64,000 nt of DNA from Dactylellina haptotyla (lineage: Eukaryota; Ascomycota; Orbiliomycetes; Orbiliales; Orbiliaceae): contig CM062383.1 in assembly GCA_031310005.1 (NCBI GenBank), positions 1 to 64,000 of the forward strand. The letters run 5' to 3'. The notes under the pieces were generated by a model. That model worked only from the letters and a program-made list of their open reading frames with translations. It was not told the DNA's origin and did not search any database. Each line of letters starts with the position of its first letter. Positions within the stretch are counted from its first letter, which is position 1. A program made the translations under genes and the position numbers. Below, piece after piece: positions 40,711 through 58,030 of this stretch.

Positions 40711-43700
40711 GTTGTATACCGCCGATAGCTCGTATCCGAACCGGGCTCCCAGCGAGAAACAGACCTTCTAATGTCTCGGCCGTTGTTATGTGTTGTTTTT
40801 GTTGGCGATCGTGTGTTGCTGGCGCAGGTCGCTGACGTTGGGGGAGCTGCGACAGGGAAATGGGACGGGCGGTGATTGACAGGTCCGCAGCATTCCAATG
40901 GGAGCGAGACGGTATATCGACGAAGGGAAGGACGGTGATGTTGGAGAAGACCGGACGGTCGGCTCGTTCTGAAAAAGAAACCGAGAACAAAAAAGTGCTT
41001 AATGAGCACCCGATATTATTTTTCCTTCACTCCGCTGCTATTAATTTTTCACTTTTCTTTGTGCATCTACGCGAAGGCGGTGGCGCCGTAGGAAGTCACC
41101 GCATGACGCGGCGGAGGACTTGACTGCTCTAACAGTGCATGAATCGTTCAGCTCCAGGCTGGGATTGGTGGTTCGCTCTTGCCCGCCGTAGCGAATGAAG
41201 AGCTGAAGAAGGCAGTTGCGGTCTGTGATCCGGGACAAGCGAGGTGGAAGATAACGGATAGGAGAGCGAGCGATATCCAGATGGTTCAAATTGTTAGAGC
41301 GGAGAGAAAATAGAAAGAGAAAATCTGTTTCTTGGTTCGCAGCTTCTCAAGATAACTAAGTTTGGTTTTCCAGCAGGCGCCTGGTCTTGCAAGATTGGAG
41401 GTCCGGCCGAAGAGCCAGGCCTTTCGTCATCATCATCATCGTGGGCCGGAAACCTGACCGACATGGGTCTGCCTGGTTAGTCAAACAAATTCAAGCTTTC
41501 AACGCTCTTGCTCGTACCTGCCTTGTTAGCGTACTGGTTCTTATCCGGAGTGTGGAAAACACCAACACTCGCAGCATCAGCCATCATTGCGTGTCCATCA
41601 AGAAGCACGAATCTATCCATCGTGCTGGAGAACTCCGAAGAAGAATCTTGCAAAGACACAAAATTTGCAATACGACGGTAGCCTAACGGGCTGTGGTGTC
41701 TGTCCAAAGAAACCGCCTTGCAAATTGTTTTTTTTTTTACGTCGAACTGCGAATGCTTCCTCTGTTTCACCGGACTCAATCGAACCCGGTTGTGCCACTG
41801 GCGGAAACGAGTTCCTCGGCTGCTGGGGCACCGATCCAGCGAATTGCATCCCTCAACCTAGCCATACGGAACAAGCCCGACTGTCTCGAGAAACGCGGGA
41901 AATATTATTAGGTTCAAGAGAACGAACCCACATCGTGCTCTTTTGTCGAATTCGAATGCAATATGGCTACGCTGCTGGGGATATTTGTGGAGCGCTGTAT
42001 GCAGTTCTTCACCAGCCCTATATCGAACCATTTCCCATTGATTCATCATGGCCATGTGTGGCACCGTCATGTTAACGATGCTTGCATCCAACGTCCATCA
42101 ACCGAAATGAGAGCGAGTGAGAGGAACCCGCCTTGGCGCTGTTAACTCGAAATTCTGCATGCGTTCCCGTCGATGATGGCGGTGACAGCTGCAAGTAATA
42201 CTACAGTCTGATAATAAGAAGTGTGTGAGTGTATGTGGCATCGTGAGGATTCGGACAGGCTTCAACGAAATGAGAGGGAACATGTCAACCTTCAGACCCC
42301 AGGCCGGTTCTTACCGTTGCGTTGTATCCGCAACGCCCTCCAAGCCACCGCAGTCCGGCTTGATACAATCTGATGGCGTCCACAGCATCATCACCATCAT
42401 CATCGACTTCGACCATTGAGGACCAGCCTGGCAATCCGACAGGGCTCTGCGTCTTGCGAGAGAGGGAAAGAGAGAGGTTAATATCGATTGATTGGGATCA
42501 TTTGTGTAAGTAGCTGTCATTCGCTCACACCCTGGGGCACTCGACCTTCAAAGCTGCCACGCTAATATTAGCAGTTCTGTTAAGACCGCACGAGCACCGA
42601 ATGCAATTTAAGCACCAGACGGGTGAAGGCGACCCCATTGGCTCGACCCGCCGGTCGCGGTGGGGTCCATTTTAATATCGATTTCATTCACGTTTCCAGC
42701 GTGAAAGAAAATAAATGAGAATACACGCGGATCAGCATCTCTTGGGTCCAAGCGAGGCAGAATGCCATGCTGCGGCCCACGGGATATCCATTATATCAGA
42801 AACCCTCTGATCGGGCTCAGTCCATCGTTTGTTCGATCGCACATTATTGTTTGGCGCCGAGCGACGACCTCTGCTTGCCTCCAAACTCAATGCAATGCGC
42901 TTGCTTGCTGCATGCATCCGGAGGAATTTTTCTTCACCAGGCGAATTGAATCGAATCCATGTGAGCAGCTGCCATGGATTCGTTCGACGGGCCAGACCCC
43001 ATTGGCTGTCCGGCCTGATAACGATAAGATCTGATTTGGGTTGAGGGCAACAAATTTCACATTCTGCCGCTGATTCGCGAGCTTGTCCTGCACCAAGTGG
43101 GGTGGTTACCCCTGGACCTTGCAGTCCAGGATTTTGAGTGATTAAACCCACCGCAGGGGCGAGATCGAAGGGAACCCGAATTTCTGGGTGGCCCAAGTTT
43201 GCTTCCTTTGTTCAGCGACGACGTCAATCGATATCCAGAGAGCTTCTCCCCCTGATTTCATCGCTTCATCCGGAGTTGTCACGCTGGAGCGCAATCCCCG
43301 GCGAAACCATCGCGTCGATTAGGTTTAGGTGTCCAAGAAGACCAGAAAGTCGCCGTCAAGGCGTCGATGCGACTACCTTAGTGCCGGTCTACAGACGCTC
43401 ATTACTCGACTGTCTCGAGCTCGCCGCAATTTGGGGCGGTCCTGAAAGCCAGGGATCCTGACTTTTCTCTCCCGCTTTCAGCCCTCGGGCAGAAACCACG
43501 CCCACGCCGTCGCAGAGAACTCTGCATTCGGATAAGGCCCCTCGCTAATTTATATCTCTTCCCATTCACTACTGCATTCTTGAACTGTTTCAGAAAGGGC
43601 TTGCCCTTCATTGTGTCCATGTGCTGATAAACTCACCTCCTTTCTTTTTTGCTCTTCTCTTGATAATCTGCGAGATATATCGCGCTAGAGCAAAGAAAGG

Positions 43701-44350
43701 CCACAACCTCTGTGAACAATCAGAGAGAGAGAGTTCTAATAATAATATATTCCCAGATCCTGGGAAAGCTAACAAAGAAATAAAATACCCATCCACGGCT
43801 GCGGCTTGGGCGTTCTTTTAGTTTCCCTCTCTTTCCCACTCTTTCGCAAAGAGAAACTTTCTTGCGATCCCACATTCCTGCTTGTTGGTATCTATCTCCT
43901 GCATCGAAAGTTGCAGTATTCCAAACACGCGAGGAATCGAGAACGACTCCTTTTTTTACACTCCTTTTTCGAACGGACTTGCAAACCTGTCGCCTGCATA
44001 TGTCAGGTCGTCTAAATACCCACACCGCCCGAGGAAACAGACACACACACACCACGTATTCTCCTCCCTTGGTTCTCCCGAGAAAGTTCTCCCTCTACCT
44101 TCCGCCGAAGCACGGATAGTCTCATGAGATTAACTCTTGCAGTACCTTGCATCAACATTCTCGAGCACACAATCACAAGAATACCGGCCTAGACATACTG
44201 AAGTGCTCAAGCCCCATGCACTGTGCCATAGCGTAGGTTTGCTTGAATACAGCCGCGCAAACTAGGCAATTTAGGAAGCCTACTCATTGGATCACCTGCA
44301 AACTCCTGTCTCCGGTTGTAGCTCCTTAGCCAGGAAGATTGCCGCCCGCG
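40711..44350. other. 3.6-kb divergent gap between protease and hydrolase genes
   Basis: No coding region is supported. It contains short ATC/CAT microsatellites at 41427-41440 and 42386-42404. T- and C-rich leader-like DNA fills roughly 43780-44340 before the hydrolase start, which suggests a long 5' UTR. Open frames here look random. Confidence 0.45.
42386..42404. repeat. CAT/ATC microsatellite
   Basis: CATCATCACCATCATCATC, a short imperfect trinucleotide repeat. A similar perfect run lies at 41427-41440. Both are in non-coding DNA. Confidence 0.85.
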
Positions 44351-46774
44351 ATGGCCACTACTACCACGTCGGCTTCAATGTATCGCCAAAACCTCCACCC
44401 TCACAATATCCCCCGTACCACCAGCACCACCACCACAGGTGCAGGCGGCGGCAGTAGCAGCAAGTCATCCCGGCCTTCGAACACTCGCCGAAAGTCTGCT
44501 CCTTCCCCGTTGAACACATCTCAACTCTCTACCGACCCCGAGATCATGGCGTCTCTAGTTGAATCCCTTGCGAAGATCGCCCCATCGCCTCAACACACCC
44601 TTTTCTTCGAAGGTCCTAGTTCGGATTTAATCACCGGGAAAGACGGCGCTGCCTATACCACTTCTAACTCTCCAGTTCGAGACTTGCATCTTTTACACCC
44701 AGAGGATGCAGCAACACCCCCCGTTGTACGGACTAGCAAACGCTATAGTACTAGTGGCTCATCCCTAAAGTCCACCAAGGAAAGCTTTATGGGTAAAAGA
44801 TCCAGCTTGTCAACCGATGTCCCAAATTATATACAGTCGTATTCCCGAAGGAATAGTGCCGAGAAAGAAAAGATCCCCCCACCCCCAAAAGCGATCCTAC
44901 GTATGAGCAGTACGGAAGATATACGACTCAGGAACTCCGAATCTCACCCTCTTCAGACTCTCAAGACACCAACCAACAATATGGAGGCCATCGCCGCCTC
45001 TCCAGCAATAGCCGCAGCCGTGCTGTCGGTACCCGAACGTAGATCAAGTTATGGAAAGGGGCTCTCCCCGGAGAAAATGAAATCGAAAAGAGAGTCACGA
45101 CGTCACTCAGCCCTTGTCTCATCGACTTCATCTGGCCTGCAATTCGCAACTGCCCTTTCACACCTACGAGGCCCTACGCAGCCTAAGCATGTCCCGCGCG
45201 AGTACGAGCACCAGCAATTCTTCTCTCAAACGACAGAGTTCTCTACAGCATAGTTCTCACCCTCCTGTTACGAACCACCGACGTTCGTCCAGCGGGAGAT
45301 TAAGGAGGCGATCGTCCCCACCAACCTTGGCACCCTCGCTTCAGTCACTTAATGGTCTAGACGATCGAGCATCCAACGCCGATTCGATCGACGATGCCGT
45401 TGAAGCTTATCTCTGCTCCCCTAGGTTATCTCAGAAACTCCGCTTTCCTAATTCGGGAAGGACGATATCTTTCAGTGAAGTCGGAGACCCGAATGGGTAT
45501 GCGGTATTTATCTGCGTGGGAATGGGTTTGACGAGATATGTTACAGCATTCTACGATGAACTTGCATTAAGTTTAGGGCTTAGATTGATCACTCCAGACA
45601 GACCTGGCGTTGGCGAGTGATGCCATCCCAGAGTCTGAAAGGACTGTACTTAGTTGGCCAGGTATTTATCCTTATCAACGCTTCTTATCTTTTATCTACT
45701 AGATTTCTAACCCCTCATCGCGAACATAGATGATATTTTGTATATCTGTCAATCCTTGAAGATCACAAAGTTTTCGTTACTGGCACACTCGGCTGGGGCC
45801 ATTTATGCACTTGCTACTGCTCTTCGTATGCCTGGTCATATCAGAGGCAAAATCCATTTACTCGCTCCATGGATCCCACCATCCCAACTAGAGGCTATCG
45901 CGACATCACAAGGTTCACCATCGCCAGCTGCCGTTCCCTTCCCAAAGAATTCTCAGAGCATTGCCGACTCCTTTCCTCAAGGCAGCAAACTCCTCTTTCA
46001 TGTCTGCCACCAGTGCCTCGCTTACTACATCATTACCAAAGACACCAAATAAGAAGAAGAATAGAGTAAGCTCCGACAAAGGCAAGCTTCTTGCGACACA
46101 GGCCAGCGGAACAACGGGTGCCAATAGTACAAAGCGATATTCGATAACCTCGACCGGTGTTGCATCGACTACCCTCGGATCTCGCGCGTCCTTTGAACCC
46201 AGATCGCCAACCATTACTTCCATCATGGAACAAGATGCACTAAACAGCACAGATGCTATTCTCGCAGCCGCTTTGTCCAGCGCAGCCGAGAAAGAGAGGC
46301 AACAAAGTTATGATGAAAGATTAACCCACCAAATCTGGTCTCTCGCAACCCGCAACGCTAATCCTGCCGTTGATCTCCTTGTCTGCTTGGAACGCTCGCG
46401 GCCGATTGGCTTCCGTTATGTGGATATCAATCGTCCCGTCGTTATCCATCATGGTACAAAGGATACCAGAGTCCCGGTTGAGAATGTCAAGTGGTTAGGA
46501 CAGACAATGCGCAGATGCGAGGTTAATATTTTACAAGGAGAGGGCCATGGGTTGATGGGCGCGAGCGTCATGGGAGGTGTATTGAGTGACATCGCACAAG
46601 AATGGAGAGAATGGAAGCGAGCGATGGAGAGCAGAGTGGCCGCTGAGCAGAAAGTCAGCAATTCGTGGAGTATGTAGTAAATCCTTGTTTTCTATATTTC
46701 ACAGTCGAGTACTAACATGCATTTCCCTGACAGGTCCTTTGGCTACAACTCCTGAGCAAAGTGAGGTCCACTAA
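44351..46774 (+). CDS. Alpha/beta hydrolase with disordered N-terminus; two apparent frame breaks
   Basis: I read four exons (44351-45201, 45254-45661, 45730-46669, 46734-46774), coding about 746 residues if two small frame breaks are allowed for. The N-terminal ~370 residues are Ser/Thr-rich and basic, probably disordered. The hydrolase core follows: TISFSEVGDPNGYAVFICVG, then LRLITPDRPGVGE, the nucleophile elbow LLAHSAGAIYALA, the acid in HHGTKDTRVP and the His in GEGHGLMG. The triad is complete. A short intron (52 nt, GTACGA...TAG) explains one frame change. Two others cannot be spliced away. After GVGE (45615-45617) the sequence is 2 nt short of the expected GESDAIPESE. Between about 45925 and 45950 there is one extra base before the conserved LPTPFLKAANSSFMSATS. 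The last exon follows a perfect CTAAC branch site. It is either recent decay or sequence error. Confidence 0.7.
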
Positions 46775-49700
46775 ATTTTGAGATTGATTCCAACCTTGCC
46801 AAATTTACTTGCATCTATCTCTCACTCTATTATTTCTATTGCATATCCACGACCACCGGTCTCTTTACATTTTAAGCCTAGCCTGGACTATTGGCCTACG
46901 AAAAAGTTACTCATACTGGCTTTCAGATACATCTTACCGGCCTCTTTGATTTTGAACTGAAACGGACGGCGTCTAACGACTCATTTTCGGCATTTTCGGG
47001 ATATTGTATCGGCTTTCTCTCATTCAACTTTCTCGTTTTAGCATTTCTTGATTCGATTCTTGTAGATAGCGATTTTTCTGGATACATGGGCCTTTTAATC
47101 CTTTTTCTTCTAGCTTTTTTAACACCAAAAAAAACTTTCGGTTTCTTATCAACCATTTCTCTGGTTCTATTTGAATATGATAGCCCATTTGGCTTTCGTC
47201 ATGCTGCAATAGTTTAGGGATGGGAATCTTCTTTTTACTGTGTTTTTTGCTGTTTAATTTACCTATCTTGGTGTCAATCTGGATATAACCCAATAATCGA
47301 ATTTCAAACTCTTTTCATTCGATTTCCATACAAATATGGAGTGCACCCAACCGTGACGCCAGTGAAGAATAGGATCTCTCGATTTCACCCCAGAAAATAC
47401 TGATACAAGTCGTGATTCTGGAGATGTTTCGCCGAAATTTGCATTGAGGCAGCAGCAGTTCTAGATATCGGATCTGAAACCTCCGTTGGATTTATAACAA
47501 CAGGTCTAACAATCCCGACCTGGAACTTCGATAACGCGTTCCTACAATGCCTCGGGAACCCCGCGAAGGCTCCCGCGTGGTCGAATGCGGATCTATTTCG
47601 TTCAATCTAGAACGCGCAACGAGGTTCATTCAGGCAGCAGCGAACCAAGCGACGTGTTGAGGCCCTAAGACCTCAATGTAGTCTAGAGCCAACACGGTAT
47701 ACACTATCGGGAAAGTCCGGTACATACATCGAAAGTGTTCGAAAGTTGAGGTTGGTATTCCGGCGCACATGGACTGCCGATTGCATACCCGTGCTACAAC
47801 CCAAGGCTCTCATCCTGGTTAGATTACTCATCTTTATTTACAGAATATCGAGTCCAGGCATATTGCAATATATTGTTGACTTTGCCGCCAAGCTAACCTC
47901 GAATTTAAAACAGTAGCTAGTATACTGTCGTACACCATCCGTGGCGCACGAAGAGCTAATAGCTAGTGTGTGTGAGCGCGTGTGCTACTGTGCTACTGTA
48001 ACTTCTTCTCCATTGACATTACTTGACACCGGTGCCGCATAGATAGATGTATTAAGAGATCGACCAGCCACAATTAGAAGTACCTAGGTGTATATAAACT
48101 ATATGCCAATCTTAAGCACGTCGTCAGCATGATTCACAGATGCTTATATCTTCGATCTCCGCTGCATGGCCGCGAGGCGAAGCACTCTGCAGCAAGATTA
48201 ACTTTACCATGTGATCGATTTTTTTATAAATTTAAGTGAGGTGCGGGAAAACCACGTAATACTGGCATGGAAATGCCCGATGGCACTGCCAACCTATAAA
48301 CCTAAATAGAATAGTTTCGAGTTTCCGGATACCAGTTGTCCGGATCGCCAGTTATCCGCAGCTAGGGCATGCATGGGTATAGAGTCTTCTTCGCCTCCCA
48401 ATATTCCTTCGATGCAAACGTTGGGCGTGTAACCTATTTTTCGCTACTTTCTTTCTTTCTTTTTCCTCTCGCAATTGCCGTGCGTAGCACAAAGATCCAA
48501 AATCCGATTGAGTGGCGAGAGGGCTAGCTAGAGGCTTGTGATTTCATTTTTAGACTCATATTTTTTGTACGTTCTGGCAAACGAGCAAACAGCCCACTTG
48601 CCCTCAAGATCAACAGATTTTTGGCTAGGATGGTGAGGCCCGATGTGCCGCATCATTAACGATTGGGATAACGATGCGGCATTGCAGAACGTGTCTTGTA
48701 GGTGCACCCCTGTCGGGTATTCGAAGTACCTCGAGTGTCTATTAACTCGGGATTTACTCTCAACGTCACCCGGCATACTGACCAACCACGATCTCTGCTG
48801 CGAGAACCCTGGATTACCTTGTCCGGACCAATTGCCTCGCTATAAGGCCACGAGATCTACAGGGTTTCGGGGGGGCATAAGTTTCAATCCAATCAGATTT
48901 CGACAGCAGTGGCTTGGACCAGCTTGTTGGTATGTTTGTTAACAGTGGGGAAGAGCATACTAGCAGCTTTTCCGTTCAAAGTTTTTCGGTCGAAAAAGCT
49001 GAAACGATGCATTCCGGAGCGCGGAATCCACCATTGTATGAAAAGCAAGAAAAAAAGAATTGGTGCATCAACGCCTCCCTACACTAAAAATTGCTCTGCG
49101 TCTCCCGGCTTAGAGTAAAAGCAGGGAAACAGGCAAGTTTCCCTTTTTACCCCTTCAAATAGGGGACTAAGAACGTGCACAAGTGGAGGTGCTTTCTGCA
49201 GGTTATATGCATGGCGCATCGTTTTGAGTGAAGATCAATTCCTAAATCTATCGCCTCGCCGTTCCAAGTTATTTTTTGTTTGGGTTATCACTTAAACCGA
49301 GCTGGGTGCAAAATGAATGCAAACGGTCTTTGTCACATCGCGTATTCTTGCTGTATATTCTCTTCAAAACAGAAGTATTCCAGCGATGTGCGCAGTTGCA
49401 TTCCAGCTGATCGGCTCTACCTGCAAGCCATATCGCTCCAAGGGATTGTCCTTCCCGGGAGCGTTCCATAGGAAACAAATAAATAAACAGGATGAGAGAG
49501 AAAGATCTAAGAAGTTTGTACTATACACCGGCTCCTCTAATTACCCCTCTGCATTACCCATCCATCAGAAAGAAATGAAACCCTATTGGTATCCCAGGAA
49601 ACAGGCTTTTGCAAAAGAAAAGAATTAAAATGGAATAAGCTCCGACCGCTGCTCGCCCGATTTATGCGAGGGCGGGTGGAAATCAATTCCGTGTTTTGGA

Positions 49701-49983
49701 TTTGGGTACATGTACGCACGTAAACCTGCAGCTCTCTAGGAGCTCTTCGGTTTATTTAGCGAAAGGGATAGGACTATGGAGAACTGAAAGGACAAAGAGA
49801 CTATTCCGTAGGTATTAGGTATATGAAGATATTGAATAACAAACACACTGTTAACACCGTTAATTAACCAAAGTAAACGATCAAAGTATTCCACGCCTTG
49901 TAAACAATCTGGAATAATGTGTTAAAAACTTCAAAACGGACAGAAGAAAAGCAGGAGCATTTTAGATAAATATTCATGTGCTG
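46775..49983. other. 3.2-kb gene-free convergent region
   Basis: I find no gene. The frame at 46891-47217 is rich in Phe/Leu codons only because of T-rich DNA, probably the 3' UTR of the hydrolase gene. Other frames are short and without motifs. Confidence 0.5.
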
Positions 49984-52710
49984 TCATCGTCGTTCGTTAA
50001 TGTTCGCCTCATTCGATAGGACGTTTTCCATTAAGGTCCAATAAGAAGGATCGACCTGGTTAAGCCATGCCGTGTTTTCGTTTGGTGATGGAACTTTCAT
50101 GTTGCTGAAACCTAGCGCCGCGCGACCGTAGGACTCGTAATTTGGCCAAAACTTGGGCACAATGTTGTTGTCACCACGCATATCATTCGACGGCACAACA
50201 GGCGGTATATATAAAGACTTAGGGTCGCTAGGCAAAGAACTGGCGATTATAGAGGAGGCGCTAGATGCAGTTGATCCGATACTGGTGGAGCCCACGGATA
50301 CAAAGGAAGTAGGGGAGGTGCTGTATTCCACATTGTTGAAGTTCAAAGATCCAGGGGAAGCGTTCATAGGAATTGAGCTACCATAGTTGATAGGTAATTG
50401 CTCGTTTTTGAGAATTTTTGCGACCTCATCAAAAAGATGGAGACTTTGTTCCACAGTCGGACGAGATACGGCGGCCGCTTGGAGTGCTTTGATACAAGTA
50501 TGCAACTCGCTGCTTGTTGCAACCTGGAAAGGTTTTGTGAAAATGGTGGCAGCCAAGAGCAGAATTATAGATATTTTGAACGTGTGCTGATATGATAACT
50601 CGCTTTGATGAAGGCGGAAGCCTCTCTCCCAGTCAGGGTGCTGCATCATTCTATGCAGTAAATGTACCGTCGATTTTCCGACTTCCACAGATCGGATAAA
50701 GCACCGGGTTCTCAATCGTCGGTCGAGCGAAGCATACGTAAAGTATCGGTACATAGCGAGTCTGGTTGCCATCACCATCATCGCGTCTATCAGAGTCGGT
50801 TAGTTCTATAGCCTTAGATATATCGGAGCTGGTATCGAATGCCCACATTTTAGCAGAACGGGTTCTATTGGTCCGGAGTTTTCCCAATCTAGAATGCCTT
50901 CTGGGAATCCTTTCTCTATCGTGTCCAATTTTTCCTCAATCTCATTTATACGATATTCTATTTGTATTTCGTTGCCTGGCTCGACGTTCAATCGAAGAAT
51001 TGGATCAATAAATCGTGCATTCGCTATGAGCTTTTGTAAAAGGCTGACGCTCGAGAAGGTATTGGTCCCCGCTGGTGCATTTTCGAATGTCGCATTGATA
51101 AGATCGCTAGTATCGTTTTTGCCGGGTTCATCCATATCAATCTCCTCTTCATTGAGTATTGGTGGTCTACCGAATTGTAACGCTAGTTTTCGGTCCATCA
51201 TAAAAGTACACCAGAAGATACGCGATCTATGCTCGTATTCTGCCGGCGTGAATTTTCCATCTGAAGGTTTACGGTGGAGCCCGAGATCTTGACACACCCT
51301 CGCAAGACACCCAACAGTCATCCATGTAGGTGACGGAAGTGCAGCAAGATCAAGGTACATCGATAGAATGAGTAAAACTAGATATTGGTCAACCCTTAAC
51401 TTTGAGATAAATGTGAATGATGCTCATTCAATACCTTCAGCGTCGGCCAATGTATACATCGGCTGATTTAGGTCGTGAAATTTCTTCGCGCATTCGAAAA
51501 AATGCCATCCTCGTCTACTACAAGTTAGCAAGAGGACAAAACACAGGGTGGAATAGATTTATATACTTTGAGTTATAGTTCGGAGGCTCAAAAACATCGA
51601 GGTCGTCTGAGCAGATACTCGCCAAGGCATAAATTGCCATAAGAACACAAAAAATACTAGTGACATTCATCTGATCATTTGGGAATATTGGCGCTTCGTA
51701 TGCTCGTTCAAACTTGTTGAGAATTATGGGCCAATATACAATTGGCACACATCTAAGTACTGGCGTTAGAAAAGCTCGAGGTTGAGTAGTGCTGACTCGT
51801 GTATTTACGTACCTAGCCGTGTTATAATGGAAGATATCGAGGAGCTTCTTCCCACTGACTTTCGGGGGGAGCAAAGCCCGAAGGTCCCGTAACTGAGATC
51901 CTTCGGAATAGCTGGCCGTATTTGTTGGGAAAGCCTTCGCTTCGCTGTTTTTCCAGGCATCAAGAAGGGGAGTAGTGTCATACCCTAGCCGTTCAACATA
52001 TTCTTGGACAGAGGCCAAGAATCCAAGGCCGGAGGTTGTACCAATAAAGAGGTCGTCGGAGGTACTACCATCATATGAAAATCTCCTAAGAGGTTGTGAA
52101 ATAGAAGGTCGCGGTGATCGATCACTTGGTGACTGTCCGGTGGTTGTTGTGGAAGTTGTAGGGCTGTCGTCTCCCCTAGTTATTAATGTGCTGTGAGAAT
52201 CAGACGAGGAGGTTTGAAGCCCGGTGTTGCTGCTGTCACCGGATCGATCGCCGGATTGTAACTTTGCCTCCGCAATCTTTAGTTTCTCGTTAAGCTCCTG
52301 GACAGTCGTCTCGAGCATTCGAAGACGCCTAAATCGGAGGGTTTTTAGCGGAAAGGCTGGGAGAATTAAGATGTTATGGTGTTCAATCGTATCTTACCTG
52401 GCTGGGCCAACTTTTTCTGTTGTCTGCTCTCCGTGAACTTGCAAAGCAGCGAAGCCGATGTGCAAGATGAACATGTTCCTTCTGGAGGTGCATCGCACTG
52501 ATTGAGCCGAGTTAAATCTATTTATATGATATCCGATCACTCTTGATGGTTGCTAACCTTGGTTTTGCGGAGACGACAGGCGTCACAAGCTCTACTCCGA
52601 CGTCTCTTCTGAAAAGCCCGTTTGCTACTCGGTCCTGGAGCTGGCTGTGGGCGGGGTATTACCACAAGATCCTCCTCTGGGACTGCTTCCAAGTTGCTAC
52701 CACCCTCCAT
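49984..52710 (-). CDS. Zn2Cys6 fungal transcription factor
   Basis: Seven exons on the reverse strand (52710-52558, 52497-52398, 52328-51813, 51752-51567, 51517-51435, 51377-50847, 50786-49984) encode about 790 residues. Basic KRAFQKRRR precedes the binuclear cluster ACDACRLRKTKCDAPPEGTC-SSC-C, whose six cysteines are all present. A coiled coil (LETTVQELNEKLKIAEAKL) follows, then the fungal-specific transcription factor domain (RGWHFFECAKKF, MTVGCLARVCQDLGLHRKP, RIFWCTFMMDRKLALQFGRP). The protein would act in the nucleus as a DNA-binding dimer; targets are unknown. The phases of exons 2 and 3 disagree by one base at 52398/52328, although both splice sites look good. This implies a missing base near 52328 or an exon I have misplaced. 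All other junctions agree. The fifth intron (57 nt) was chosen over a shorter one because it keeps the frame. Confidence 0.82.
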
Positions 52711-54873
52711 TGCTTCCTACTCTCATTGAATGGCCAAAGACACGGTTTTGTATCGCTGTTATACCAGAAATAGAGGCTGGAACTAAAAATAATCGTGTTT
52801 ATTGTCAAGCTGAGACGGAGAACTAGATCTGAGATGGATGGAATGCCAATCAGGCCGTAGTATAGTGATATGCTCTCCACCAAGCGGGTTTTTTCAGTCA
52901 GGGAACTCGGACTAGTCGGTACATAGGGTCGGAAAATGTCTGATGCGTGTATCAAAGGTCGGTTACCGGAGCAAGTGAATTATTCCATTGAATGTAAACC
53001 TTTAATTATGGTAAGCTTGTGGCTGCGGCGCGACGATACGATGGGTCAATGAGGCTGCTCTTCGATCGTCCCTCGTCCGCCGTTTAAACTGAGTTAGCAT
53101 TCAGTTGCAACTCTCTTCTGTCGGCTGGTGGCGAGCCAGATGACAGCCCGAAGGCAAATTATTTGCGCTTTAAAGCTGATATTGAAGAAGACTTTGTGCG
53201 GCAGCTGATTTTCATTGTCCTCACTGTAGGGTGACAACGTGTGGACTTGGAGTACGGTGGACTTGGAGTACGAACTGGCGATTTTTGCCGCTCCGGCTCG
53301 TCCATGCCAAACCTCTGTTGGCGAATGAGTGGTGCACTCACAAGCGCCGCCACAAAGGCTGATTTGTAAAACAGGTATGGGCTACAATGCATCCCGGGGT
53401 TCGCCCACCTTTCTCCCCTTGCGGACTTCACAGGTCCGTGCCTTGAGGGGAAGGGAGGCAATTTCAAGCTGAGGCCGGATCTCTTGGCAACCACGCTAAT
53501 TGGCTGGATTGCTGATCCGGGGAGAAAAAAGGCGTCGGAACTGTGAATTTGAATGTCAGATTTAGGGCTCAGTTAGACCGTACTGTTTTCTAGAGATAAA
53601 TTGAATTACCGAGAAAGACCCCTTTATTCACAGTCTTTGACCATGGGTTTCAAGGCATTTCGGAATGTCATCCTCGATTTATTCGGGGGATGTGTTCCCC
53701 AATCAAAGGCCTAGACTTTCTGGGGTTCAAACAAGACAGGACAAACTGTGTTGCCTTCCTAGTTGACCCAGTTTGTAGATGCGGCTGTGCGGCAATGATG
53801 CGCAAAAGGGATTGCTTGTCAGGCTTGGACGGCCATATAAGCGGTGAGCTTGCGGGTTTCAATTCATACCCGATTTGGCTTCTGGCCCTCATGACTGGGC
53901 TAGCCTTGTTCCATGTCGAATATGTTGGCATATCCGTAAATGTTCCTTCTTATTGTTGTTCAAGTAAGACCCGCCGTTTTCTAGTCTGGTTATGCTATGC
54001 GCCAGTTTGGCATCCCGCAAAATCTGGCGCAAAGGCAGGGCCGTTCTACGAACATCCGAAAATACTGGTCGTAGCACAAAGCCATCGAGCCTAGCAACAG
54101 GACTCGGAAGACAACCGGTTGGTAGTACAACTCGATTTCCCTTGAGGTTCTCAATTTCTAGATACTCTCAAGATTTGCCGACTAGCTGTTCCCGCTCGTG
54201 GGCTAGGTACGTGAGACTTGGAGAATACCCAGAATACCACTGTTTATGGTTATATAAGTTAGCTCCTGGTCTTCCTTGATATTGTTCGGCAGAAAATTCC
54301 ATCGATAAAAGCTCGGGTTTGCGGAACTTACTCCTTCACCGTTGTTTATGAAACTGCCATGGCGCAGGGTAAAAGTGAGATGCCTCAGTTTTGCACCATT
54401 GCCTTCGAGATGCGGTCCCAGTTTTGGAGGAACAAAGCCTGGTATCTGCGTGAGGGTCTGGGACCAGCAAATATCCATCAGCTTCGCTAATGATGCCGTG
54501 CGGAATACCAGCAGGCAGATTGATTACGAACCTGTCGAGCGAGATACCCTCAGAACCTCCGTCAGCGGCGGGATTGCCAATGGATGGGAAAATTGCAATT
54601 CCCATCACTCCCCGACTGGCAAAGGCCCCCTCGGCCTACTGTACACGGCCGGGAGGCTCGCCCTTGGCCGGGATCTACATCGACGAGAAAGAAGTGTTGC
54701 CGCAGGTTGGAGGACCATCTGAATGGTCGGAAATGGGGTCTCCTTTATCCGGTGCCCCCTTCACGAGCTGCCGAGGTCGTGAGTTGTTGCGTTGCCGTGT
54801 TTGCCCGCGCAACACATCCCATCCGGGTTCCTTGACGTCAAGACTGGGAGCACAAAACAAACGGACACCGGAC

Positions 54874-54881
54874 CACGTGAC
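54874..54881. promoter_or_regulatory. CACGTGAC E-box-like site before the eS30 gene
   Basis: The same 8-mer as before rad10, here about 255 bp before the eS30 start codon and just upstream of the duplicated TAGGGCTTCGA element. Confidence 0.4.
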
Positions 54882-54894
54882 CAACACAAATAGT

Positions 54895-54916
54895 TAGGGC
54901 TTCGATAGGGCTTCGA
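54895..54916 (+). promoter_or_regulatory. Tandem duplicate TAGGGCTTCGA element before the eS30 gene
   Basis: Two exact, adjacent copies of the 11-mer TAGGGCTTCGA end about 218 bp before the start codon. Its core AGGGCTT matches the paired element before the eL6 gene at 35027-35040. I infer a ribosomal-protein-gene promoter element; it also resembles a single telomere unit, so a telomere-repeat-binding factor is possible. Confidence 0.5.
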
Positions 54917-55133
54917 ATTTCGCTGACAAACGTTACCACTTCGAGCAAAAGCGAATTGGTGGCGGGAGATTTCACAGCGAAGAGTCATATCCCAGCTAAA
55001 CACCCATCGACAACCTCCTTCTCAGTCCGCCAACCCGATCACGAACCAAGCCTTCCGGTTCCTCAACGACCTCAACGACCTCCTCCGAACGACAAATCAT
55101 CGATATACACGTCAAAACTTCTAGACCGACAAT

Positions 55134-55505
55134 ATGGGAAAGGTTCACGGATCTCTCGCCCGTGCGGGTAAAGTCAAGTCTCAGACTCCAAAGGTACGAC
55201 AATGCATCCGACGGACGCCTGGAGGAGATTGCTGGGAGCAGTACATATTATGATATCACCAGGGATATCTCTTGGAGGTGGTTGAACAGCTCTGGCTAAC
55301 TCGAGACGGGTGGATAATAGGTTGAGCCACAAGAGAAGAAGAAGTCGCCTAAGGGACGGGCAAAGAAGAGAATACTCTACACCAGACGTTTTGTCAACGT
55401 CACCCTCACCGGAGGAAAGAGAAAGGTATTTGGCCTTTTGAATACGAGCTCTCTAGACCTCTAAAGATACTAACATTGCGGTGATGTCCCAACCCAGGAT
55501 CGTGA
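55134..55505 (+). CDS. rps30: 40S ribosomal protein eS30, damaged or unusual last exon beside telomere-like repeats
   Basis: The first exon (55134-55193) encodes [20 protein letters not shown]. The second (55321-55425) encodes [20 protein letters not shown] and on to [11 protein letters not shown]. Together they are eS30 almost to its end; the protein belongs to the 40S subunit near the decoding site. Fungal eS30 normally ends MNPNPGS or similar. At 55484-55505 the sequence ATG, then TCCCAACCCAGGATCGTGA, looks like that last exon: CCC AAC CCA GGA TCG TGA reads PNPGS and stop. It appears two bases short after ATG and no AG acceptor precedes it, though a perfect TACTAAC branch site lies at 55468-55474. 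Splicing to the next AG (55496-55497) would give an unrelated tail instead. The start of the telomere-like tract is only about 37 bp beyond the stop. Confidence 0.78.
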
Positions 55506-55542
55506 GCTTGTTCACATTCTCTTACTGTCCTTCTTCGCCATC

Positions 55543-55660
55543 TAACCCCTAACCTAACCTCTCCTAACCTAACCTAACCTAACCTAACCTAACCTAACCC
55601 TAACCCTAACCCTAACCTAACCCTAACCTAACCCTAAACCTAACCCTAAACCCTAACCCT
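55543..55660. repeat. Interstitial telomere-like tract, CCTAA/CCCTAA units
   Basis: About 118 bp made almost entirely of C-rich telomere-type units on the + strand. The left part has seven consecutive CCTAA 5-mers after a short irregular start. The right part mixes CCTAA, CCCTAA and CCCTAAA. Fungal telomeres are usually (TTAGGG)n, so CCCTAA units fit and CCTAA is a variant. Orientation is that of a left chromosome end, with the AT-rich block to the right being capped. To its left lies a gene rather than nothing. The tract separates two DNA types of sharply different composition. Confidence 0.92.
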
Positions 55661-55679
55661 ATATATACAACAATAACAA

Positions 55680-58030
55680 AAAAAAACATATTCAATATAT
55701 CAAAAAAATCTTAAAAGCCCTATAGAAAGCTAATCTATATATTAAACTATCTAAATACAAATTTTTTATAAAAAAAACCAAATTCTTAAAATACATTATC
55801 AGAAATAATAATATCAAAATAAATCCAACTAAAATATAAGATATACTAAATTAGGAAGAATTAAAAGAAGAATTAAGTATAATTAAAAAAGTATAATCAT
55901 TCCTAAAATTTGCTAATTTTTATAAAAAATTTATTAAGGATTATATACAAATAACAAAATTATTATATGATTTAATATAAAAAAATTATATGTTTTATTA
56001 GGGATTACATAAAAAAAAAATATTTAAAATATTTTAAAAAATATTTATATTAGAATTAATATTTAAATATTAAAATCTTAAATTAAAAACTAGAATAAAA
56101 ACTAATATATCTAATTATGTTTGTACAGTAGTATTATCTTAGAAATATAAAAATGGATTATAACATTTGATAGTATACAGGTTAAAAAAATAATATTAAT
56201 AAAGTATAATTATAATATTTATAATAAAGAATTTTTAGTAGTTATATAAGTATTTTAAAATTAAAAACAATATTTAATGAATATATTTACTTAAATATAT
56301 ATATTAACAAATTATAAAAATTTTAAATATTTTATAATAAAATAAAAATTAAGATTACAATAAATAAAATAGATAGAATACATATTCAGATTTGATTATA
56401 AAATCATTTTTATCTTAGGAAAAACTAATATTAAAGCTGATATATTAATAAAAAGGTTGAAAAACTTTTTTTAGAGAAAGAGGGATGAAAGATTAAAAAA
56501 TAAAATTAAAATATTTATTCTATTAAAAAAAATTTAATAAATAGGTAACTTAATAATACAGAATAAATAGGAACAAGTTTGTAAAAAAAATAAATATATA
56601 TAAAGTATTTTAACCACCTTAAAAAATAATAAAAAATGATACCCAGAAATAAAAATATTTAAATATAAAAAAATTAATAAACAACTATATTATAATTTAA
56701 AAAAAAAAATCCTATAAAACAACAAAATTAGGGCCAAAATACTCTTATAATATTATAATCATCCAACTATTGAACACCTAAAATAAATAAAAACCCTAAA
56801 ATTTATATAAAAAAAATATATTTAAAAAAGAATCTAGAAAAACACTAACAAATACATTAACAATTATTATATATATTATAAAATAAAATTATTATAAAAT
56901 ATATTATAAGGATTACTATACTCCTTACAAATCTCAAAAAGAAACTAGAATAGTATATCTTTTAATCTTATTATAAGATTATTAAAAATAAATAAATATA
57001 ATACTATTTTAATAACTATATATAGATTTTTAAAAATAATCTATTTATTACTTATTAGTAAAAAATTAGACATTAAAAAACTAACCAAAATATTTCTACA
57101 AAATATCTAAAAATTATATAAATTACCAAAAAAAGTTATATCCAACCAAAACACTAATTTTCTAAATAAATTCTAAAATAAAATCAACAAAAAACTAAGG
57201 ATCTATTATAAATTAAGTATAATATACCACCCACAAATAGATAGGTAAACAGAGTAAATCAATTTTATTATTGAATAATATTTTAAAATTTATGTTAATT
57301 ATTAATAAAATGATTGGGTTAAATGGTTGTTATTGGTAGAATATTGTTATAATAATAAGATATTAAATATTATAAAAATATTATTTTTTATAACTAATTA
57401 TAGGTGGAATTTAAAAATAATAACTATTAATAAAGAAATACCAATATGGAATTAAGAAGTTTTCAATTTTATAATTAAAATAATAGAATTATAAAAACTT
57501 ATTAGAGTAAAAATCAATTATACTATATAAATATAATAAAAACAAACAAACAAAAAAAGACAGCCCATAATTAGTTATAAGAAAGAAAACAAAATATAAC
57601 TAAATATATATAATATCCTAATTATCAAACCTAGCCCAAAACTAACCAATAAAAATAAAAAACCATTTTGAATTTTTAAGTCTGTAAGTAATAAAATATA
57701 TAAACTAAATTTTCCCTTTTTTATAAAAATCCATCTAATATTCTACACTAGTTTATTATAATAAATAAAGAATAATAGATTTAAAAAATAAAATAAAGAA
57801 GAAAGGCCTCCACCTATTATTATTGATTAAGATGGTAATGTATTATATAAAGTTATAGAATTTATCAACTTTTGATGAAGAAATAACTAACTAAAATACC
57901 ATATTCATTGGAAAAACTATGATAAACCTACCTAAAAATTTATTAAATATGTTCAATATATAAAACAATTTCTTTAAATTTTTTATAAAAAATATCCTAA
58001 TAAACCAGCCTTTAGTAAATGAGGAATAAT
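55680..58030 (+). mobile_element. Ty3/Gypsy chromovirus fossil, 3' part only
   Basis: Very AT-rich DNA in which traces of a Ty3-type polyprotein can be followed in order. These are the end of the reverse transcriptase (from about 55740), RNase H (about 56000-56300), the integrase zinc-binding region (about 56760), the integrase core end (about 57220) and a chromodomain-like end (about 57800-58020). The 5' half (LTR, gag, protease, most of RT) is absent: the element begins directly beside the telomere-like tract. It is thoroughly broken, with dozens of stops in every frame, in the manner of RIP, and looks old. The chromodomain places it among chromoviruses. Confidence 0.75.

Follow-up and report, generated by a model that had tools for sequence, protein, structure and literature searches.

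In Pyricularia, according to the part of the report drawn on here (PMC8381367), some telomere-adjacent sequences were captured from internal loci and telomerase knockouts carried telomere vestiges joined to sequences lying about 20 to over 120 kb from the end, while strain US71 possessed eight long interstitial telomeres near its chromosome ends, four of them of native telomere length. In the same account, the exchange was largely restricted to the subterminal parts of chromosomes. Joins between unrelated sequences have also been described in sequencing and assembly work. In particular, single chimeric nanopore reads misassembled contigs of a fungus, an event that the relevant portion of that report calls exceptional, and an erroneous contig fusion made by Flye involved telomeric repeats (PMC7500977); furthermore, at least 1.7% of the reads were chimeric in an amplicon library prepared with one ligation kit, as stated in the portion of PMC5600009 considered here.

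In this study, we analyzed a window of 64,000 nucleotides corresponding to bases 1 to 64000 of contig C5 in the assembly of Dactylellina haptotyla (39,806,839 bp in 11 contigs). A preliminary description of this DNA had noticed a telomere-like tract between a ribosomal protein gene and AT-rich DNA, and had proposed either that a broken arm was fused to the telomere of another chromosome or that two contigs had been misjoined. The tract is very probably the genuine left telomere of C5, and the 55.5 kb lying outside it an artifact of the assembly; no new biological feature is claimed.

The telomere tract and the DNA that it caps

The tract, a mixture of CCTAA and CCCTAA units (CTAACCCCTAACC...CCCTAACCCTAT), occupies positions from about 55543 to 55662 (approximately 118 bp) with its C-rich strand on the plus strand, as located by repeat and genome-wide pattern searches. 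Tandem Repeats Finder placed it at 55548 to 55645 (period 5, 18.4 copies) with a score of 128, the highest of the 12 rows reported for the window. A loose telomere pattern with two mismatches allowed gave, in the window, 11 matches compared to 5.05 expected, which, taken alone, is weak evidence for a telomere tract. Over the whole assembly, the telomere pattern gave 80 matches versus 2 for the reversed control, and all 80 belong to 13 tracts located at contig ends or close to them. Eight of these are terminal (C1L, C5R, C6L, C6R, C7L, C7R, C9L, and C9R), and five are interior, lying 41 kb (C1R), 14 kb (C2R), 35.7 kb (C3L), 38 kb (C4R), and 55.5 kb (C5L, the window) from the contig end. Each of the five interior tracts is oriented so as to cap the bulk of its own contig. 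Reading of the sequence revealed a sixth interior remnant, a short degenerate tract at C8:21953 that the exact pattern does not match.

CCTAA and CCCTAA units are mixed in every tract in which they were counted, namely, five of the eight terminal tracts, the five interior ones, and the one at C8L; the mixture could be biological or could result from homopolymer consensus error.

Since the C-rich strand lies on the plus strand, the tract of the window caps the DNA to its right, a polarity that had been correctly recognized in the preliminary description, as had the AT-rich character of the right side: the GC content falls from 52% at 54001 to 55000 to 13 to 28% per kb to the right of 56000. The tract resembles the terminal tracts of the assembly in both repeat and length, and it adjoins a subtelomeric repeat. 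Thus, it most likely represents the real telomere at the left end of the chromosome corresponding to C5.

On its right, the copy search and the alignments delimited a repeat at 55663 to 57700 (plus strand) that is found mainly near contig ends. In a repeat-family search of this interval, in which 40 of 137 candidates were scored, 8 of the 12 best nonself rows among the matches listed are no more than 45 kb from a contig end or a tract (two at C7R, two at C6L, one at C9L, one at the C2R tract, and two at C5R), the other four being on C2, C4, and C8 (two). Copies elsewhere differ from that of the window by about 18%, nearly all of the differences being transitions; the ratio of transitions to transversions was 345:1 and 363:1 against two copies on C7 and 59:0 against 303 bp beside the C5R telomere. 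Such a strong excess of transitions is the mark of RIP, in agreement with the degraded state ascribed earlier to the right-hand block. Gap openings were few, the two C7 copies having four and one over 2 kb and the C5R copy none in the 303 bp immediately to the right of the tract. Since the compared copies extend past the position where the tract of the window begins, the telomere truncates the element at 55662. A Pfam search with two frame pieces of the repeat returned no match above the cutoff, so that a Ty3/gypsy-like character would be a reading by eye. From its sequence and distribution, it looks like the subtelomere of the C5 chromosome. Both C5 telomeres are seated in this same RIP-mutated repeat (55663 to 57700 and C5:3741168-3741470), with cut points about 300 bp apart.

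The arm outside the tract and its copies on C2 and C8

Whole-arm alignment identified the DNA to the left of the tract (positions 1 to 55543, plus strand) as a copy, in reverse orientation, of C2:1376863-1432391, and this arm is probably misplaced and does not represent the native left end of C5. The alignment is single and colinear over 55,550 columns, with 99.948% identity, 1 substitution, and 14 indel events, all falling between 44077 and 55520, while positions 1 to 44076 are identical base for base. The copy is thus undiverged apart from indel-type consensus errors, as would be the case for a chimera. The donor region is intact, C2 being contiguous and covered through C2:1367500-1434000 with none missing, which differs from the loss at the donor site that a translocation would entail. 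The sequence just past the outer end of the arm (C2:1432449-1434000) is single copy in the assembly, although a longer duplication could have been collapsed by the assembler. C5 begins at base 1 of the window in ordinary sequence. The length of the arm had been considered as a sign of a single read and was dropped, because a real long duplication would likewise assemble only to about read length.

Part of the arm (41424 to 55543, plus strand) is present a third time, at C8:1-14129, as found by match search and three-way alignment. For the portion of the window from 50000 to 55560, the matches were the window itself, C2:1376863-1382395 (minus strand), C8:8589-14129 (plus strand), and a 66% match, a weak one, at another place on C2. 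Along its entire length, the C8L arm is a copy of C2 starting at 1369039, with 99.04% identity, 6 substitutions, and 88 indel events, and its differences are scattered along the arm and not confined to the junction. For both C5L and C8L, the entire arm thus duplicates a segment that the assembly also contains at its home position. Furthermore, they are overlapping copies (41424 to 55543 of the window and C8:1-21954) of one C2 region, oriented alike; by chance, the five traced arms would be expected to yield about 0.019 overlapping pairs, and 0.010 with matching orientation.

The three-way alignment of the window, C2, and C8 over their shared stretch revealed 72 runs of differences, of which 59 are specific to C8, 11 to C2, and 2 to the window. 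The latter two, at 55483 and 55520 (interval 55483 to 55520, plus strand), are the only places where the window departs from C2 and C8 alike, and each is no more than about 60 bp from the tract. In the 11 C2-specific runs (shared stretch C2:1376863-1388400), C5L and C8L agree against C2; we read these as consensus errors in C2, because one of them causes a frameshift in the ribosomal protein gene, eS30, on that contig, although a common origin of the C5L and C8L arms would fit as well. The idea that the indels between C2 and the window reflect raw-read noise in the window arm was dropped, since in the comparison C2 accounts for 11 of the specific runs and the window for just 2; judging from these aligned copies, the arm is not simply a noisy raw read.

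The gene copy at 55134 to 55505 (plus strand), which we take to be eS30 from its translation and not from a family search, has its last intron/exon border garbled beside the tract (GTG-ATGTCCC in the window versus GTGTAGATGAACCCC on C2 and C8). The stop codon, TGA, ends at 55505, to the left of the tract, as previously indicated. Owing to the frame break, eS30 could escape annotation at its home copy on C2. A similar situation concerns the C3L arm, which breaks within a gene that we read as POL3: one 7-bp difference in the C4 source breaks its frame, and the C3L arm has other differences.

Arms outside telomere tracts at other contig ends

Five of the six arms lying outside tracts were traced to copies of interior loci, C2R being the exception. 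Besides C5L and C8L, the C3L arm is a copy of C4:1184460 onwards (outer end 2,000 bp at 100%), the C4R arm a copy of C5:493948 onwards (2,092 bp at 98.8%), and the C1R arm a copy of C6:1188046 onwards (2,008 bp at 99.5%); for these three arms, the comparison, and with it the presence of the outer segment at its own place in the assembly, covered about 3 kb beside the tract and the outer 2 kb or so. At C3L, 3 of the 8 differences from the source are located within 38 bp of the tract, and at C4R, 4 of 12 are within 25 bp, while at C1R, about 80 bp beside the tract fail to align to the C6 source (C1:7742500-7742645). The C2R arm consists of AT-rich repeat, and its best match, at C7:373530, has 94% identity with 82 mismatches and 169 gap openings. 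Among the contig ends lacking a matched tract, the one searched for copies was the left end of C2, which begins with an exact copy (C2:1-400, 400 bp compared) of C2:75782-76181, located 76 kb inside, and is likely another contig-end artifact.

The donor loci sit 0.5 to 1.4 Mb inside their contigs, and all five traced arms run from the break toward higher source coordinates. From the matches listed, the arms may point toward interior clusters of AT-rich repeats that are possible centromeres, and, if so, arms extended as far as the end of the donor chromosome would probably be dicentric. The outer 300 bp of the six overrun arms (C5L, C1R, C2R, C3L, C4R, and C8L) contain at most three scattered telomere units, and neither the pattern search nor the unit counts in these 300 bp found a telomere tract at any of the six outer ends.

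Weighing the possible origins of the junction

The explanation that we strongly favor is that a chimeric long read, or a path taken by the assembler, joined a telomere-ended molecule to an unrelated C2 fragment and would thereby have carried contig C5 past the true end of its chromosome. As no normal read continues beyond a chromosome end, nothing would contradict one chimeric extension there, and several contigs may have been carried past their true ends by chimeric reads or assembler joins in the same way. The join would have arisen during library preparation or assembly rather than in the cell; inspection of the junctions by eye recognized no adapter sequence. This explanation is supported by the distribution of the tracts, with 8 of 13 terminal, 5 overrun by 14 to 55 kb, and pattern matches nowhere else, and by the fact that C8L and four of the five overrun arms duplicate interior loci of other contigs almost exactly. 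In addition, a single substitution in a 55.5-kb arm stands against a divergence of about 18% among the repeat copies, and the differences cluster beside the tract at C5L, C3L, and C4R, compared to the gap-free first 303 bp on the right side at C5L. On the other hand, the C5L and C8L arms derive from overlapping parts of C2 in the same orientation, for which only about 0.010 pairs are expected; they agree against C2 in 11 runs, and the differences of C8L are not limited to its junction. Moreover, several ends are affected here, though such misassemblies are called exceptional in the portion of PMC7500977 considered, and the C2R arm has no traced source.

The main and serious rival to an artifact of assembly is a real duplicative capture, in which, after telomere failure, several ends would have copied internal DNA of other chromosomes, by alternative telomere maintenance or break-induced replication, and left the tracts interstitial, the copies being too recent for divergence or RIP. 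We consider it improbable, even if the geometry at the five ends and at C8L is the same as that of the Pyricularia cases described in the available part of PMC8381367 and the donor region shared by C5L and C8L, with their agreement in 11 runs, would suit it. In its boldest version, a burst of telomere failure would have led at least five ends to copy tens of kilobases of gene-rich DNA from deep inside other chromosomes and place it beyond their telomeres, one C2 region serving twice as the donor, a sequence of events that we likewise regard as unlikely. The outer ends of the arms lack a telomere tract, only one substitution has accumulated in 55.5 kb within a genome rich in RIP-mutated repeats, the donors are still in place, the differences lie close to the junctions, and the arms, if continued, would probably be dicentric; furthermore, exchange in Pyricularia is described as largely subterminal (PMC8381367, in the part considered), whereas the donors here lie 0.5 to 1.4 Mb inside. 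The native length of the tract had been considered as an argument against real telomere failure, but this was dropped: tract length cannot decide between an artifact and telomere failure, because native-length interstitial telomeres are also described in US71 in that part of PMC8381367.

The fusion put forward in the preliminary description, i.e., a broken arm joined to the capped end of another chromosome and fixed in the strain, agrees with the orientation of the tract and has a parallel in the quasiterminal translocation described for Neurospora in the consulted part of PMC5752202. However, the arm is a near-perfect extra copy whose original remains on C2, and thus a copy rather than a moved arm, its outer end has no telomere tract, and the pattern is repeated at several contig ends with different sources; a fusion scar is, therefore, very improbable, and of the two options raised earlier, the misjoin is the one that the data support best. 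Interstitial telomere-like repeats exist in other organisms, and the 11 matches versus 5.05 expected for the loose pattern in the window would, by themselves, be compatible with a chance or ancient microsatellite unrelated to a chromosome end. Nevertheless, the confinement of all 80 genome-wide matches (versus 2 for the control) to tracts located terminally or close to an end, and the occurrence of the right-hand repeat largely near contig ends (8 of the 12 best nonself rows among the matches listed) make this the least credible of the readings, with hardly any probability left to it.

If accepted as it stands, the assembly would imply interstitial telomeres, end fusions, and extra copies of essential genes (eS30 and POL3), features that the organism most likely lacks, and analyses of karyotype, synteny, and gene copy number, as well as surveys of interstitial telomeres, would be misled by such overruns. 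The overrun is exposed by a simple and general check, in which the DNA lying beyond each interior tract is used as a query against the assembly that it comes from.

With regard to the known systems, each of them considered from the part of the source drawn on here, the probable assembly overrun at C5 resembles the case of Drechmeria coniospora (PMC7500977), in which a long chimeric read misassembled a contig and the assembler was confused at telomeric repeats; different from that case, where it was exceptional, the pattern recurs at several chromosome ends in D. haptotyla, where it was seen in the assembled sequence. As in Pyricularia oryzae (PMC8381367), a telomere tract, sometimes of native length, is separated from the chromosome end by other sequence, but the events in P. 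oryzae were examined with MinION reads and are largely subterminal, whereas here an undiverged copy of deep interior, gene-rich DNA ends without an outer tract. Finally, the quasiterminal translocation of Neurospora (PMC5752202) resembles this locus in that part of one chromosome is attached to the end of a different one; it moves a distal segment, however, while the C5 arm duplicates an interior stretch and leaves its donor intact.
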